This document shows, one piece after another, positions 16,090-57,835 of a stretch of DNA of 64,000 nt (position 1 is its first letter; every line of letters starts with the position of its first letter). The notes below the pieces were generated by a model. That model was not told where the DNA came from and searched no databases. It was given only the letters and a program-made list of their open reading frames with translations. The stretch comes from Syntrophotalea carbinolica DSM 2380. GTDB taxonomy: Bacteria; Desulfobacterota; Desulfuromonadia; Desulfuromonadales; Syntrophotaleaceae. The position numbers and the translations under genes are program-made. Location: the NCBI RefSeq assembly GCF_000012885.1, contig NC_007498.2, forward strand, positions 682,001 to 746,000. The letters run 5' to 3'.

Positions 16090-16153
16090 CGGCAGACGGG
16101 CCGTTTGCATTTACCAGCATCCGCTTTGGAAAATTGCAACGATCATGCAGCCA

Positions 16154-29162: not shown

Positions 29163-30569
29163 ATGGCGACAAATCATGGCCTGCGTTCGCGCAGGATTCG
29201 TATTAAAGAGATACTGCCCTCATCGCAGCCGATGTCAGCGTTGTGTGTATGTGGCTGGGTGCGTAGCGTACGACGCGGTAAGGAGGTCACCTTCATCGCT
29301 CTGAACGACGGTTCGTGTATGGCCAATTTGCAGGTGGTGCTGACCCCCGAGGTGGACGGTTTCGCAACGGTATCACGTTGCGGAACCGGAGCCGCCATGC
29401 AGGTGGAGGGCGAACTGATAGCTTCGCCCGCCGCCGGGCAGGAGTGGGAACTGCACGCCCGACAGGTGAAAATCCTCGGGGATACCGACAGTGACTATCC
29501 CCTTCAGAAAAAGCGCCATAGTTTCGAGTTCCTGCGTTCCATCGCGCATCTGCGTCCGCGCGCCAACACCTTTGGTGCGGTTTTCCGCATGCGCAGCGCC
29601 TTGTCGTTCGCCATCCACCGCTTTTTCCGTGAACGCGGTTTCCTCTATGTGCATACCCCCATCATTACCGCCAACGACTGCGAGGGGGCGGGGGAAATGT
29701 TTCGCGTCAGTACCCTGCCGGCGGATCGGCCGCCCCTGACGGAGGGGAAAATCGATTGGCGGCAGGACTTTTTCGGCGAAAAGACCGGTTTAACCGTCAG
29801 CGGTCAGCTGCAGGGGGAATTGTTCGCGACGGCCTTTTCCGATATCTACACGTTTGGGCCTACTTTTCGTGCCGAGAATTCCCATACCAGTCGCCATGCC
29901 GCCGAATTCTGGATGATCGAACCGGAGATCGCTTTTGCGGATCTGGCCGACGATTGCGCCCTGGCTGAGGAGTTTCTGCGTTATCTGGTGCGCTTTGCCC
30001 TGGACGAATGCGGCGAAGATCTGGCCTTTTTCAATCAACGGATCGAGCCCGGTCTGATCGACAAACTCGAAACACTGGCCCGCGCCGATTTTTCCGTCAT
30101 GACCTACAGCGAGGCGATCAGGCGCCTGCAGCAGGCGCCCGTCGATTTCGAGTATCCGGTGGCCTGGGGCGCGGATCTGCAGTCCGAGCACGAACGCTAC
30201 CTGACCGAGCAGGTGGTCGGAGGACCTTTGTTCGTGACCGACTATCCGGCCGATATCAAGGCGTTTTACATGCGTCTGAACGATGACGGTCGTACCGTGG
30301 CGGCCATGGATCTGCTGGTGCCGCGGGTCGGAGAGATTATCGGCGGCAGCCAGCGCGAAGAGCGTCTCGACGTGTTGATGGGCAAAATGAACTCCGTCGG
30401 CATCGAGGCGCAGCATCTCGACTGGTATCTCGACACCCGCCGCTGGGGCAGTTGCCCCCATGCCGGTTTCGGACTTGGTTTCGAGCGTCTGTTGATGTAT
30501 GTCACCGGTATGGAAAATATTCGCGATGTGATTCCGTTTCCGCGGACACCGGGACATGCTCGTTTTTGA
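29163..30569 (+). CDS. asnS: Asparaginyl-tRNA synthetase
   Basis: A 468-aa class IIb synthetase. The N-terminal OB-fold anticodon domain is at about 15-115 (LCVCGWVRSVRRGKEVTFIA). The catalytic core has motif 2 FRAENSHTSRHAAEFWMIEP and motif 3 GFGLGFERLLMYVTGMENI. The Asn-type residues and length match AsnRS rather than AspRS. It charges tRNA-Asn in the cytoplasm. The ATG follows caggagaaattcaag. Confidence 0.97.
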   Translation: MATNHGLRSRRIRIKEILPSSQPMSALCVCGWVRSVRRGKEVTFIALNDGSCMANLQVVLTPEVDGFATVSRCGTGAAMQVEGELIASPAAGQEWELHARQVKILGDTDSDYPLQKKRHSFEFLRSIAHLRPRANTFGAVFRMRSALSFAIHRFFRERGFLYVHTPIITANDCEGAGEMFRVSTLPADRPPLTEGKIDWRQDFFGEKTGLTVSGQLQGELFATAFSDIYTFGPTFRAENSHTSRHAAEFWMIEPEIAFADLADDCALAEEFLRYLVRFALDECGEDLAFFNQRIEPGLIDKLETLARADFSVMTYSEAIRRLQQAPVDFEYPVAWGADLQSEHERYLTEQVVGGPLFVTDYPADIKAFYMRLNDDGRTVAAMDLLVPRVGEIIGGSQREERLDVLMGKMNSVGIEAQHLDWYLDTRRWGSCPHAGFGLGFERLLMYVTGMENIRDVIPFPRTPGHARF

Positions 30570-31011: not shown

Positions 31012-31118
31012 GGTGCCTCCTTATCGCCAGGCGTTTCGATTCCCCGTACATCTCTATCGTACAATTAACTATAGCAGAAAGGTAAAACTTCGCGGGACGC
31101 GAAAATCGAAAAGCGGGT

Positions 31119-31146
31119 GATTGGTGATTCGTGATTGGTCATTAGA
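31119..31146. repeat. Short degenerate heptamer run (about 4 units)
   Basis: gattggt, gattcgt, gattggt and cattaga follow each other at 7-nt spacing. The unit belongs to the same GAYTGGT family as the large array at 56871-57185. Confidence 0.6.
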
Positions 31147-31245
31147 TTACCGCCTGTTTTTGTGTAGGGAGGGTTTTCTCCCCTTGTGACGATGCCGGAG
31201 CAACGGAGACGGTGGGCGCAACCCCGCGGTGTTGTGATTCTAAGG

Positions 31246-31291: not shown

Positions 31292-32257
31292 TTAATATAC
31301 CAACCCGGTCTTTTTGCGCACCTTGCGCAAGATTTTGGAAGCGGCATAGCGGGCTTTCTGCGCACCCTCGGCGAGAATCTTGCGCAGCTGCTCCTTGTCG
31401 GCGAGCAGTTCCTCGCGGCGGCGTGTATAGGGTGCGAAGAAGTCGCGTACCGTTTCGAACAATTCCTGCTTGACCTCGCCATAGCCCAGCCCGCCGGCCA
31501 GGTAGCGCTGGCGCAGGGCTTGTTCCTGCTGTTTGTCCAGAAACAGCCGATAGATCTGGAAAACGTTGCATGTGTCCGGATTTTTGGGGTCCTCGACGGG
31601 GGTGGGATCGGTGACGATGCGCATCACCTGCTTGCGCAGGGCTTTGTCGTCGAGGAACAGGTCGATGGTGTTTTTGTAGCTTTTGCTCATCTTCTGTCCG
31701 TCGAGACCGGGGATGGTGGCGAGTTCGTCGTCGATGTCCGGCTCGGGGATGACCATCACGTCACCGTATTGATTGTTGAACTTGATGGCGATGTCGCGGG
31801 CAACTTCCAGATGTTGTTTCTGATCCTTGCCGACCGGCACCAGTTCCCCGCCGAACAGCAGGATATCGGCCGCCATCAGCACCGGGTAGGCAAATAGCCC
31901 GTGATTGGGGGCGATGCCCTTGGCGACCTTGTCTTTGTAGCTGTGACAGCGTTCCAGCAGTCCCATGGGGGTGAAGTTGGACAGCGCCCAGGTCAATTCC
32001 TGTACTTCCGGGACGTCGGATTGCACCCAGAAGACGCTCTTCTCGGGATCGAGCCCCAGGGCCAGGAAATTGGCGGCGGCTTCCAAAGTGCCTTTGGCCA
32101 GCGCCTTACCGTCGGTGACACTGGTCATGGCGTGATAGTTGGCGATGAAGCAGAACAGTTCATGATGCTCCTGGTAGTCGACCATCTTTTTCATCATGCC
32201 GAAATAGTTGCCCAGGTGCAAAGAGCCGGAAGGCTGAATGCCGGAAAGAACGCGCAT
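31292..32257 (-). CDS. trpS: Tryptophanyl-tRNA synthetase
   Basis: A 321-aa class I synthetase; the ATG at 32257 follows gaggtacccccc (an in-frame start at 32317 adds 20 residues). The HIGH equivalent is PSGSLHLGNYFG (about 9-20); KMSKS is present as LDGQKMSKSYKN (about 195). LIFGGELVPVGKDQKQHLE-type residues (here LLFGGELVPVGKDQ) bind Trp-AMP. It charges tRNA-Trp. The C-terminal tail is basic (RKVRKKTGLVY). Apparently single-gene. Confidence 0.97.
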   Translation of the reverse strand: MRVLSGIQPSGSLHLGNYFGMMKKMVDYQEHHELFCFIANYHAMTSVTDGKALAKGTLEAAANFLALGLDPEKSVFWVQSDVPEVQELTWALSNFTPMGLLERCHSYKDKVAKGIAPNHGLFAYPVLMAADILLFGGELVPVGKDQKQHLEVARDIAIKFNNQYGDVMVIPEPDIDDELATIPGLDGQKMSKSYKNTIDLFLDDKALRKQVMRIVTDPTPVEDPKNPDTCNVFQIYRLFLDKQQEQALRQRYLAGGLGYGEVKQELFETVRDFFAPYTRRREELLADKEQLRKILAEGAQKARYAASKILRKVRKKTGLVY

Positions 32258-32584
32258 GGGGGGTACCTCATTGGTTGGGAAGAAGGCAGGTGCTTTGGCG
32301 AAATTGGGGCGGGGCACGACTGGTGCCGGCTTCCGGTTTTCGCTGTGAAGCCCTGCTGGTTCTGGTCAATAAAAAAAGCCGCGGTCGTATGGCCGCGGCT
32401 TTTGCTTGTTTATTCCCCGCGGACCGGCTGGTCCGCGACGCTCGTTACCGAAGGCAGGCGCGCGAACCGAAAGAAGAATCGGTCCAGCGCCACCAAAGGC
32501 GGTTCGTCAGATTTTGCTGTACGGTTAAGGTATGCATAGCCAGCCAAAACTAACAGGTTGTCGCTTCATCGTCAACGGTGAAAA
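32258..32584. other. Intergenic stretch upstream of trpS (327 nt)
   Basis: It contains the terminator hairpin at 32372-32408. The rest (32410-32584) shows nothing I can assign. Confidence 0.5.
32372..32408. terminator. Bidirectional terminator between trpS and the 75-aa gene
   Basis: A 10-bp stem (aaagccgcgg / ccgcggcttt) with A-run before and T-rich after. It ends minus-strand transcription from the small gene at 32585-32812, or any + transcript. Confidence 0.7.
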
Positions 32585-54983: not shown

Positions 54984-56750
54984 TCAGAAAGGGAACAGCC
55001 AGGGAATCAGCAGGCAGGCGCAGACCCATACCAACAGGTTCAAAAGTACGCCGGTGCGCATGAAATCCGAAAAGCGATATCCGCCCGGCCCCATGACCAG
55101 GGCGTTTGACTGGTGACTGATCGGGGTCATGAAGCAGGAGGAGGCTGCGACTGCTACCGCCATGAAAAAGGGGCGGGGAGAGACTTGCAGGGTCATGGCT
55201 GCGTGCAAAGCGATGGGCGCGATGAGAACCGCCGTGGCGGCGTGGCTCATGATTTCGGTCAATACCGAGGTCAGTAAAAAGAAGGCCGCCATAACAACAT
55301 ACGGGCCCCAGTTGCCGAGCATGTGCAGCAGGCGCTCGGCCAGCAGACTGGCAGCTCCGCTGTTCTCGAGGGCCAGTCCGAGGGGCAGGGTTCCTGCGAT
55401 CAACAGGATGATGCGCCAGTCGATGCTTTCGTAGGCTTCCTGTGCCGTGAGGCAGCGGCTCAGGACCATGCCCAATGCACCGAGTGGCGCCGCCAGGGCG
55501 ATGGGGAGGACCTCCGTAGAGGTGAGCAGTATGACGCCGGCCAATACCATCAGGGCCATGGGGGCCTGGCGGGGGCGATAGGGGACCGGTTCCACGCCGC
55601 CGAGCAATAGAAATCCGTGCTGTCTTCCAAGGTGCTTGATTCCGGCATCGTCGCCCTGCAAGAGCAGTACGTCGCCGAATCGCAGTACGACATGATCGAC
55701 TTTTTTTACCACCGGGGCGCCTTGCCGCCATAAAGCCAGTACATTGAGGCCGTGAGTTTCCCTGAAGCGCACCTGGCGCAGGGTTTTGCCGACCATGTCG
55801 CTGTTGGGGGTCAGAGAGGCTTCCACGACAAGAAGTTCCTTGCCGCGACGCGGTGACTGTTCGGCACGTTCGGGGATCAGTTGCAATCCTTTGGCGGCCA
55901 TGACCTTGAGGATGCCATGGGGGTTGCCTTCCAGAAACAGGATGTCGTCAACACGCAGTTTGCGGTTGCGACGGGGCTGGGGAAACTTTTCCCGGCCGCG
56001 CAGTATGGCCCTTACCCGCAGCTGAAAATCCCTTTCCAGAGCACTTCCGGCGATCGTTTGCCCGGCCACGGGAGAGTCTTTCAGGATCTTGACCTGGGTA
56101 ATGTACTCCTTGACCTGGTAAGCTTCGGTCAGTTTTTCCGATTTGCGCGTGGGCAGCATGCGCCGGCCGACAAGCGCCATATAGCTGATGCCGACGATCA
56201 CCAGCACGATCCCGAGGGGACTGAAGGAAAAGAGCCCGAATCGTTCACCGGTATACTCGTAAAGCAGGGCATTCATCAGGATATTCGGCGGCGTTCCGAC
56301 CAACGTACAGACACCGCCGAGCAAAGAACCGTAAGCCAGGGGGATGAGCATTTTCGAGGGGCTGACGTGCATTCGCCGGCAGATATCGACAATCACCGGC
56401 ATCAGCACGGCCGTCGCGCCGATATTGTTGATAAAGGCGGAAAACACGGCCACGCTGGCCATGATGATGACGGTAAGGCGCATTTCGCTTCCCCCCGCCA
56501 GGCGAATAAGGTGTTCGCCGGCTTTGCCCAGTGCCCCGGTGTGGGTAATGCCGGCACTGATGACAAACATGGCGGCCACCGTAATCACTGCCGGGTTTGA
56601 AAATCCGCTCAATGCTTCAGGGACGGAAACCAGCCCGGTGATGGCCAGCGCCAGAAGGATCAACATGGCGACCACATCCATGGGCAGCCATTCGGTGGCG
56701 AACAGCAGCACAGCCGCCAGCAGTATGCATAGGGTCAAGGTGATAGCCAT
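54984..56750 (-). CDS. SLC13-type permease with two TrkA-C (RCK-C) domains
   Basis: A 588-aa transporter. An N-terminal half of five to six helices (residues 1-190; FINNIGATAVLMPVIVDICR and VGTPPNILMNALLYEY are the substrate/Na+ motif) and a C-terminal half (about 400-588) flank two cytoplasmic TrkA-C domains (about 210-380). This arrangement occurs in bacterial DASS-like carriers for dicarboxylates, sulfate or similar anions. The substrate is not determined by sequence. Monocistronic. Confidence 0.88.
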   Translation of the reverse strand: MAITLTLCILLAAVLLFATEWLPMDVVAMLILLALAITGLVSVPEALSGFSNPAVITVAAMFVISAGITHTGALGKAGEHLIRLAGGSEMRLTVIIMASVAVFSAFINNIGATAVLMPVIVDICRRMHVSPSKMLIPLAYGSLLGGVCTLVGTPPNILMNALLYEYTGERFGLFSFSPLGIVLVIVGISYMALVGRRMLPTRKSEKLTEAYQVKEYITQVKILKDSPVAGQTIAGSALERDFQLRVRAILRGREKFPQPRRNRKLRVDDILFLEGNPHGILKVMAAKGLQLIPERAEQSPRRGKELLVVEASLTPNSDMVGKTLRQVRFRETHGLNVLALWRQGAPVVKKVDHVVLRFGDVLLLQGDDAGIKHLGRQHGFLLLGGVEPVPYRPRQAPMALMVLAGVILLTSTEVLPIALAAPLGALGMVLSRCLTAQEAYESIDWRIILLIAGTLPLGLALENSGAASLLAERLLHMLGNWGPYVVMAAFFLLTSVLTEIMSHAATAVLIAPIALHAAMTLQVSPRPFFMAVAVAASSCFMTPISHQSNALVMGPGGYRFSDFMRTGVLLNLLVWVCACLLIPWLFPF

Positions 56751-56870
56751 GCGACCTCTTGCGGTTTGGAAAAGGGAGAGCCGGGTATTATAGGGAAAGT
56801 TTAACCGGATTCTTCATGAAGTCATCCGGTGGCGGTGTTCGGGGCGGGATTTTTGTCGGGGAAAAGCAGT

Positions 56871-57185
56871 GACTGGTGACTGGTAGCTGGTGACTGGTGA
56901 CTGGTGACTGGTGACTGGTGACTGGTGACTGGTGACTGGTGACTGGTGACTGGTGACTGGTGACTGGTGACTGGTGACTGGTGACTGGTGACTGGTGACT
57001 GGTGACTGGTGACTGGTGACTGGTGACTGGTGACTGGTGACTGGTGACTGGTGACTGGTAGCTGGTGACTGGTAGCTGGTGACTGGTAGCTGGTGACTGG
57101 TAGCTGGTGACTGGTAGCTGGTGACTGGTAGCTGGTGACTGGTAGCTGGTAGCTGGTAGCTGGTAGCTGGTAGCTGGTAGCTGGT
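56871..57185. repeat. 45-copy, 7-bp minisatellite (GACTGGT/AGCTGGT)
   Basis: The array is exactly 315 bp, 45 uninterrupted heptamers without indels. Units 1-3 read GACTGGT, GACTGGT, AGCTGGT. Units 4-27 (56892-57059) are 24 pure GACTGGT. Units 28-40 (57060-57150) alternate AGCTGGT and GACTGGT, and units 41-45 are pure AGCTGGT. It lies between thiE and the permease gene, 23 nt beyond the thiE stop. Its length (not a multiple-of-3 unit) makes it open in several frames, but I do not regard it as coding. Confidence 0.98.
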
Positions 57186-57208
57186 GGGAGTTCGTCAGTG
57201 AAGAAGCT

Positions 57209-57835
57209 TCATTGTATTTCCGCCAGCAACGCCCGCGTTGCAGCCTCGGGATCGGAGGCGGCCAGAATCGCGGAAATAAGGGCGACTCCCGCGGCCCCGG
57301 CGGCGCGGACTTCGGGAATGCGGTCACGGCGGATACCGCCGAGCGCCAATACCGGCAACGAGGCCGAAGCACAGGCCCGGCGCAAGGCCTCAAGGCCCTG
57401 AGGCGCGCCATAGGGCGCTTTGGAGGGGGTGAAATAAACCGGGCTGAAAGTCACGAAGTCGGCGCCCTGGCGGTATTCCCGTTCAATGTCCCCGGCATGA
57501 TGAGTGGAGCGGCCGATGATGGCCTGCTTACCGAGTATCTTGCGTGCTGCATGGGTAGGCAGGGAGTGTTCGCCCAGGTGCACCCCGTCGGCTCCGGCTG
57601 CGAGGGCTACATCGATGCGATCGTTGATCAGTAACCGGGCACCGTATCGATCCATGAGGGATTTCAGCTCCATGGCACAGCGATAGAGTTCGTCGGCAGG
57701 CAGGTCTTTCTCGCGCAACTGCACGGCACGCACCCCCCCGTCCAGGGCCTGTTCCACGGCTGTCAACAAGTCGCGCCCGGCAGGCAGGTTGTTGCGGTCA
57801 GTAATCAGGTAGAGGCGAAAGTCGTCGGTATTCAT
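57209..57835 (-). CDS. thiE: Thiamine phosphate synthase
   Basis: A 208-aa TIM-barrel enzyme that joins HMP-pyrophosphate and thiazole phosphate. Motifs are RAVQLREKDLPADELY (about 36-51), LLINDRIDVALAAGADGVHL (about 68-87), IIGRSTHHAGD and VTFSPVYFTPSKA. Last gene of the riboswitch-controlled thi operon, 19 nt after thiH. The tandem heptamer array follows immediately downstream. Confidence 0.97.
   Translation of the reverse strand: MNTDDFRLYLITDRNNLPAGRDLLTAVEQALDGGVRAVQLREKDLPADELYRCAMELKSLMDRYGARLLINDRIDVALAAGADGVHLGEHSLPTHAARKILGKQAIIGRSTHHAGDIEREYRQGADFVTFSPVYFTPSKAPYGAPQGLEALRRACASASLPVLALGGIRRDRIPEVRAAGAAGVALISAILAASDPEAATRALLAEIQ

Follow-up and report, generated by a model that had tools for sequence, protein, structure and literature searches.

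Heptamers lead among the long repeats of bacteria (Mrazek et al. 2007, as cited in the available parts of PMC4679880 and PMC4692102). According to the accessible portions of the reports concerned, the GGGNATC heptamers of Xanthomonas and Nostoc are dispersed, intergenic and variable in copy number, and Xanthomonas presents 70 and 75 convergent inverted heptamer pairs whose gene context is kept between species while their length changes (Rehm et al. 2015; PMC4692102). Geobacter metallireducens has paired heptanucleotide sites of class 3 (MTYCTGA) as well as H4 elements (Aklujkar et al. 2009; PMC2700814). TAACTGA repeats, with up to 43 copies, are found in Beggiatoaceae, cyanobacteria and Bacteroidetes (MacGregor 2015; PMC4679880), and the omega/ParB heptads of plasmid pSM19035 follow the sequence WATCACW (PMC9499535).

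We analyzed an array of heptamers located between thiE and a permease gene in the window, i.e., the whole 64,000-nt stretch of the Syntrophotalea carbinolica DSM 2380 genome considered here (positions 682001-746000 of its single contig), together with related repeats elsewhere in this genome and in others. These repeats resemble the GGGNATC repeats in being dispersed intergenic heptamers with variable copy number and inverted pairs. However, the unit of the latter is GGGAATC, with G-tracts for quadruplexes (PMC4692102, available part), whereas the unit found here is GTGAYNN, in another bacterial class; a G-tract of three per unit is absent from GACTGGT, which contains at most GG. The likeness to Geobacter class 3 lies in the intergenic location, the pairing on opposite strands and the occurrence in related bacteria, the Geobacter sites comprising about five tandem heptads and being mostly paired. 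Those sites have another consensus, however, they were interpreted as regulator-binding, and long pure arrays are not described in the accessible part of PMC2700814. By eye, neither GACTGGT nor AGCTGGT fits the MTYCTGA consensus in either strand, but Geobacter class 4 and the supplementary alignments of the same paper may include the present family.

The TAACTGA repeats likewise form intergenic arrays that are scattered over phyla and missing from close relatives at the same site. The array studied here has another unit and is separated by 23 nt from the stop codon preceding it and by about 120 nt from the following start. The TAACTGA repeats, by contrast, mostly stand immediately ahead of start codons in the main genome described, where only one indirect repeat was counted among 170 sets (PMC4679880, available part). 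The omega/ParB heptads share with our repeats their contiguous non-palindromic 7-bp units, their ATCAC core and their direct and inverted arrangement; ours are chromosomal and dispersed, their units vary between genomes, and no omega protein was found over the cut-off in 58 genomes, in contrast to the plasmid system (PMC9499535, available part). We found no description of the RTGAY heptad hairpin presented below in the accessible literature, although the supplementary alignments of PMC2700814, PMC2996986 and PMC3543383 (Geobacter, Pelobacter) may contain it. Paired heptamers are already known from Xanthomonas and Geobacter, and we rate the RTGAY hairpin as a variant of such elements.

The heptamer array downstream of thiE

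When split in sevens from position 56871, the array consists of exactly 45 units with zero indels, as the original prediction had stated, and it is the sole row returned by TRF for the window (56869-57186, period 7, 45.4 copies). Only two unit types are present, 32 GACTGGT (G) and 13 AGCTGGT (A) on the plus strand, which differ by two adjacent bases and not one; in transcripts reading from thiE, these units are ACCAGTC and ACCAGCT. The block of 24 GACTGGT units and the alternating pairs announced by the prediction are both present in the order given in Table 1, but the leading G, G and A units had been missed, and what had been described as six to seven pairs followed by five units is six pairs followed by six. 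This perfect tandem run is far longer than expected by chance, as no array of this kind was found in the Markov control. The high end of the array lies 23 nt beyond the stop of thiE (gap 57186-57208; last stop base at 57209), the distance originally reported, and the array is located about 120 nt ahead of the start of the permease gene (56750), which is read in the same direction as thiE.

Table 1. Features of the window discussed in the text. G, GACTGGT; A, AGCTGGT (plus strand).
Feature	Position	Strand	Basis
Heptamer array, 45 units, GG A G24 (AG)6 A6	56871..57185	.	reading in sevens, TRF
AAAAGCA, directly before GTGACTGG; end sequence common to other heptad elements of the genome	56862..56868	+	match to pattern AAAGSNRTGAYNNRTGAY
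thiE (name by reading)	57209..57835	-	39 of the 40 genomes searched have an orthologue
Permease gene, anion-transporter-like by reading	54984..56750	-	beside thiE at 14 of 29 loci in relatives
Inverted repeat CCGGAT...ATCCGG ahead of the permease gene; outside the heptad element; also in congener G002	56805..56829	.	by eye
207-aa ORF running through the array, very likely spurious	56788..57411	-	ORF call
Second, unexpanded heptad element: AAAAGCGG GTGATTG GTGATTC GTGATTG ... ATTACCGCC	31109..31160	.	folds at -20.4 kcal/mol

The array presents stops in every plus frame and in none of the minus frames, so that the 207-aa minus-strand ORF is very likely spurious. As DNA, its GT-rich strand folds better than shuffled sequences (z = -10.8), in a mismatch-rich structure, and the folding energy of the ACCAGTC strand is zero. 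We found no inverted repeat of at least 12 nt between positions 56700 and 57300 and no heptad partner arm within 120 bp of the array. An AAAGC-type end, which precedes GTGAY heptads at other elements, is present at the array (AAAAGCA GTGACTGG, position 56862). The octamer GCTGGTGG at the array edge (57180-57187) is the Chi motif of E. coli; its position there is probably due to chance since the window contains three copies on the plus strand and four on the minus strand.

We then compared the thiE spacer across congeners and found the number of heptads in it to be strongly variable between species. In the congener G002, the same spacer is 224 nt long and contains, on the plus strand, AAGGCC GTGACTG GTGATTG GTGAGTA, so that roughly three related heptads stand where the array has its corresponding end. 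No heptads are visible by eye in G001, G004 and G005, whose spacers are 95, 182 and 94 nt long, respectively, and in G003 the permease gene does not follow thiE. Because a short heptad tract is still found in G002, the window array is best read as a lineage-specific expansion of such a tract, and a heptad origin at the thi spacer is suggested by this one congener, whose spacer is hard to align.

A genome scan for the same heptamer, proposed along with the original prediction, revealed GACTGGT arrays at six further places of the 3,665,893-base contig; at another three places the arrayed unit is GACCAGT, which differs by one base, giving nine other array sites in all. Like the window array, some of these are built of blocks: a GACCAGT-type array (L158) extends across 62 units in three blocks and another array (L171) contains several. 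Three consecutive copies of GACTGGT were found in 8 of 58 genomes, S. carbinolica being one of the 58 here and in every count out of 58. The 35-mer of GACTGGT matched at least 116 stretches, including cyanobacteria, Lentisphaeria, a haloarchaeon, Bacteroidetes, actinobacteria and others. Among viral contigs, a single one (IMGVR_UViG_3300006916_001491, positions 1-125 of the fetched locus L316) carries about 17 copies of the heptamer at its very end, which may be host sequence or an assembly edge.

The period of seven predominates beyond this particular unit. Sampling 464 kb of the S. carbinolica genome (20 evenly spaced 20-kb stretches plus the window), we detected four period-7 arrays, one period-12 array and none at any other period from 4 to 16; at the threshold that gave these five, third-order Markov resampling of the same 464 kb yielded no array at periods 4-16. 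In 360 kb of the congener G004, which lacks GACTGGT arrays, we detected two arrays, of periods 7 and 9, respectively. Lags other than seven are not absent, since a looser scan of the intergenic DNA of S. carbinolica gave, at the higher of its thresholds, tracts with lags of 7 (five), 9 (three), 14 (two) and 12 (one). Across the 0.80 Mb surrounding the 35-mer matches listed, we counted 189 period-7 arrays, 120 of which consist of the recruiting unit; among these same listed matches, every other period was represented by at most 10 arrays, except period 14 with 22, eight of them exact doubles of the recruiting unit.

Several arrays of S. carbinolica that were not recruited by sequence have other units, namely AATCACT (L183), GTGACAA (L186), TCACTTG (L196) and AATCACC (second array of L158), and all four present the core RTGAY or its complement. 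Four tandem copies of TGACNNN were found in 28 of the 58 genomes and four copies of TAGCNNN, a different core, in 13, which indicates that other genomes use other cores too. Both searched cores contain stops by choice, and their counts are therefore uninformative on any stop-codon idea. The backward heptamer was present in 6 of the 58 genomes, but it is not a clean control because the reversed heptamer contains TGAC again.

Heptad hairpins of fixed polarity

Many arrays are surrounded by short variable heptad runs in opposite orientation. An inverted partner was found within 120 bp of 6 of 14 arrays of S. carbinolica and a direct partner near none of the 14 (respectively, 1.8 and 0.2 in the permuted-unit control), a moderate excess given the control value of 1.8 out of 14. 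The corresponding numbers in congeners were three and zero of eight arrays (control: 0.2 and 0.2), whereas in other phyla no preference was observed, with 40 inverted and 38 direct partners for 200 arrays (control: about 12). These counts omit L072, L087 and L109, which are G002 duplicates, and arrays with less than 100 nt of flanking sequence.

The order of the arms is strongly biased. Among 56 heptad clusters of this bacterial order, GTGAY was found in the first arm in 31 cases and in the second arm in three; the set includes four loci twice (L233/L256, L242/L251, L186/L248 and L237/window), and excluding two twice-fetched loci gives 29 and three. Gapped patterns detected GTGAY...RTCAC pairs in 19 of 58 genomes and the opposite order in one, which is a block junction within a single array, the opposite-order pattern (GTCAC) being somewhat stricter than the forward pattern (RTCAC). 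RNA folding of 19 chosen elements gave z-scores of -4 or lower for 15 of them and -2.7 for one, the remaining three being L242 (-2.1), L258 (-1.6) and L158b (0). The ten loci compared with Rfam (52,782 bases) gave no match up to an E-value of 0.1.

The pattern with the AAAGC-type end, AAAGSNRTGAYNNRTGAY, has 65 matches in 29 of the 58 genomes versus four for the backward pattern; seven are in S. carbinolica, including the end of the window array. Heptad clusters are present at 14 of the 30 loci fetched with this pattern, and the rest look like single coding matches. Considering the ends of 50 hairpins, part of which were recruited through the AAAG-type end itself, we found an AAAG-like left end in 25, a CTTT-like right end in 19 and both in 10.

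The window contains a second heptad element, which is unexpanded (Table 1) and sits between the convergent ORFs 29163-30569 (plus strand) and 31292-32317 (minus strand), respectively aminoacyl-tRNA synthetase-like and TrpRS-like by reading. Elements with a single long arm were found as well: one arm of about 20 units next to a short variable arm (L255, in G056), a variable first arm with an expanded second arm (L249, in S. carbinolica), and one-arm expansions with a short variable partner (L163, also in S. carbinolica, L170 and L169).

Two further observations concern copies within S. carbinolica. An unexpanded heptad element at 1117.2 kb (L248) and one far away at 3653.7 kb (L250) share about 50 nt of identical surrounding sequence. 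In L183, two similar heptad elements (TCACGTAACTAATCACTAAT...GGTTTTTACC), of a type without an inverted second arm, lie 3 kb apart at positions 16150 and 19320.

Different heptamers in the purH-purD spacer

One of the arrays of S. carbinolica (L161, 14 units) is located between purH and purD (names by reading), and the unit of this array is absent from the same spacer in G002. We searched the purH-purD spacers for periodicity, using 43 of 51 spacers; in the eight dropped, purH does not adjoin purD or an extra ORF lies between them. A significant 7-nt period was detected in 11 of the 43, relative to zero to three at any other lag from 4 to 12 (P < 0.01 by shuffling, i.e., about 0.4 cases expected per lag). 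Two of the 11 (L269 and L296) are short matches inside another type of repeat, and the genomes are partly related and hence not independent. The units are GTGACTG (S. carbinolica and G003), GTGATGA (G032), CCTTTGG (G036 and G047), GGGACGA with TCGTCAC (G016), CTGAGTG (G005), GACTGAA (G038) and CAAAGGC (G049).

By eye, the purH-purD spacers of L268, L278 and L288 and of L269, L274, L276, L284 and L295 contain at least two other kinds of seemingly dispersed repeats, a GGGCGCAGCATGCTGCGCCC-type hairpin and a GGCC...GACCTCGGCC-type element. As other hairpins occupy this spacer in other genomes, the spacer may simply tolerate insertions.

We tentatively raise the possibility that these elements form a distinct class of bacterial intergenic hairpins. 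Their 7-nt arm period and inverted pairing, and at some sites also their genomic position, would be kept, whereas the unit sequence would be exchanged from one genome to the next. If true, one would have to assume a trans-acting factor that advances by 7 nt, either a polymerase or a binding protein, and by which all copies in a genome are selected or rewritten together; long arrays such as that of the window would be its by-products, and the Xanthomonas heptamer pairs would fall into this class as well.

Proposed growth of the array

With moderate confidence, we interpret the window array as the runaway tandem expansion of a single arm of a heptad hairpin, an element dispersed between genes. 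The unexpanded element has about two to six variable heptads per arm, RTGAYNN in the first arm and NNRTCAY in the second, separated by a short loop and with a single polarity, and its ends are often AAAGC-like and GCTTT-like. Replication slippage would then lengthen one arm in steps of 7 nt. At the thi locus, we infer that the array grew from such an arm, that slippage was the cause, and that the partner arm, of which none is visible, was lost. Because any unit of one arm can pair with any unit of the other, a heptad stem tolerates the gain or loss of whole units, and this may be why expansions persist. The array is most likely near-neutral at this locus.

The blocks fit the stepwise expansion that had originally been proposed, and such structure recurs in the block-built arrays described above (L158 and L171), but the proposed sequence of a variant unit appearing first and then expanding simplifies too much. 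The 262 arrays examined contain 100 block changes, 45 of which affect at least two bases simultaneously. The altered bases are adjacent in 15 of 25 two-base changes (P = 0.006; binomial test) and contiguous in 6 of 12 three-base changes (P = 0.02) and in none of six four-base changes; the rows of one genome are not independent, and L125, L002-L008 and L164-L167 were omitted as duplicates. Slippage accounts for copy number and blocks but does not by itself explain the core shared within a genome or the multi-base block changes.

Copying from arm to arm by template switching, a mechanism described in the available part of PMC8794818, was considered and rejected: two arms of the same element do not resemble each other more than arms taken from different elements do (11 of 26 exceed the mean of the cross comparisons; P = 0.50 by permutation).

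A plain heptanucleotide simple-sequence repeat, produced by slippage on a chance seed and unconnected to any element, appears rather unlikely to us, although several observations are in line with it. Unrelated phyla also contain the GACTGGT unit, with no preference for inverted partners there and with period 7 again leading among other repeats, the window array has no partner arm, and heptamers lead among long bacterial repeats in general (Mrazek et al. 2007, as cited in the available parts of PMC4679880 and PMC4692102). However, the arrays of S. carbinolica share the RTGAY core and are accompanied by inverted pairs of fixed polarity, and the AAAAGCA end of the window array and the related units at the same end in G002 also speak against this reading.

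A protein with a 7-bp step is possible. That the array serves as binding array for such a protein, as WATCACW does for omega repressor/ParB, with copy number tuning the binding, is in our view improbable. The variable heptads AATCACT and AATCACC of S. carbinolica are close to WATCACW (PMC9499535, available part), heptads occur in direct and inverted arrangement, cores differ between genomes as they would with a co-evolving binder, and the paired heptanucleotide sites of Geobacter were interpreted as regulator-binding sites (PMC2700814, available part). Against this, Omega_Repress had no match in S. carbinolica, two matches below the cut-off in the 58 genomes and none above it, and the hairpins show no regular distance to promoters, with 7 of 30 located between divergent and 10 of 30 between convergent genes. 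On the same result over the 58 genomes, identity with omega/parS was rejected.

We consider it very unlikely that a telomerase-like reverse transcriptase of the DRT10 type adds the repeat from an RNA template. DRT10 produces cDNA of 9-nt tandem repeats in bacteria (PMC12632851, available part), and the multi-base block changes keep part of the unit. The accessible portion of that paper, however, contains nothing on chromosomal insertion, and RVT_1, which may miss divergent reverse transcriptases, matched 27 of the 58 genomes but neither G018 nor G020; both of these bear arrays, so that RVT_1 matches do not follow the arrays and a reverse transcriptase seems not to be needed. Moreover, the five RVT_1 matches of S. 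carbinolica, one frame of 469 aa and four of 537 aa, resemble by reading copies of group II introns. The four 537-aa frames (G000, at 994130, 1539193, 1560480 and 1609166) have near-identical scores and are probably copies of one group II intron.

Finally, a role in the thi operon as transcription terminator or as 3'-end element of the mRNA is just as hard to sustain: the array and GCTTTT do lie downstream of thiE in its reading direction, and convergent gene pairs are mildly over-represented around hairpins (10 of 30 versus 35 of 220 spacers of S. carbinolica; P = 0.039), but hairpins do not avoid divergent spacers (7 of 30 versus 46 of 220), no more than 10 of 50 hairpins have both ends, one arm is unable to fold alone, as the zero folding energy of the ACCAGTC strand indicates, and pure arrays follow no strand rule (16 sense and 28 antisense between tandem genes, 25 convergent, 12 divergent, 15 inside ORFs and 39 at contig edges among 135 arrays, three G002 loci being counted twice). 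Tandem genes flank 13 of the 30 hairpins versus 139 of the 220 spacers; all these contexts are approximate, the genes of each locus having been called by picking the longest ORFs. With a convergent excess that is only mild, no strand rule and no avoidance of divergent spacers, we do not claim a terminator.

The preference of long bacterial repeats for a 7-nt unit is a long-standing question. In one order of bacteria, the long arrays can be linked to a short form whose paired arms have a fixed polarity, and the purH-purD spacer presents different heptamers at one address in different genera. The question thereby becomes testable: the number seven may be set by the step of a protein, by a polymerase, or by a stem in which whole units can slip.
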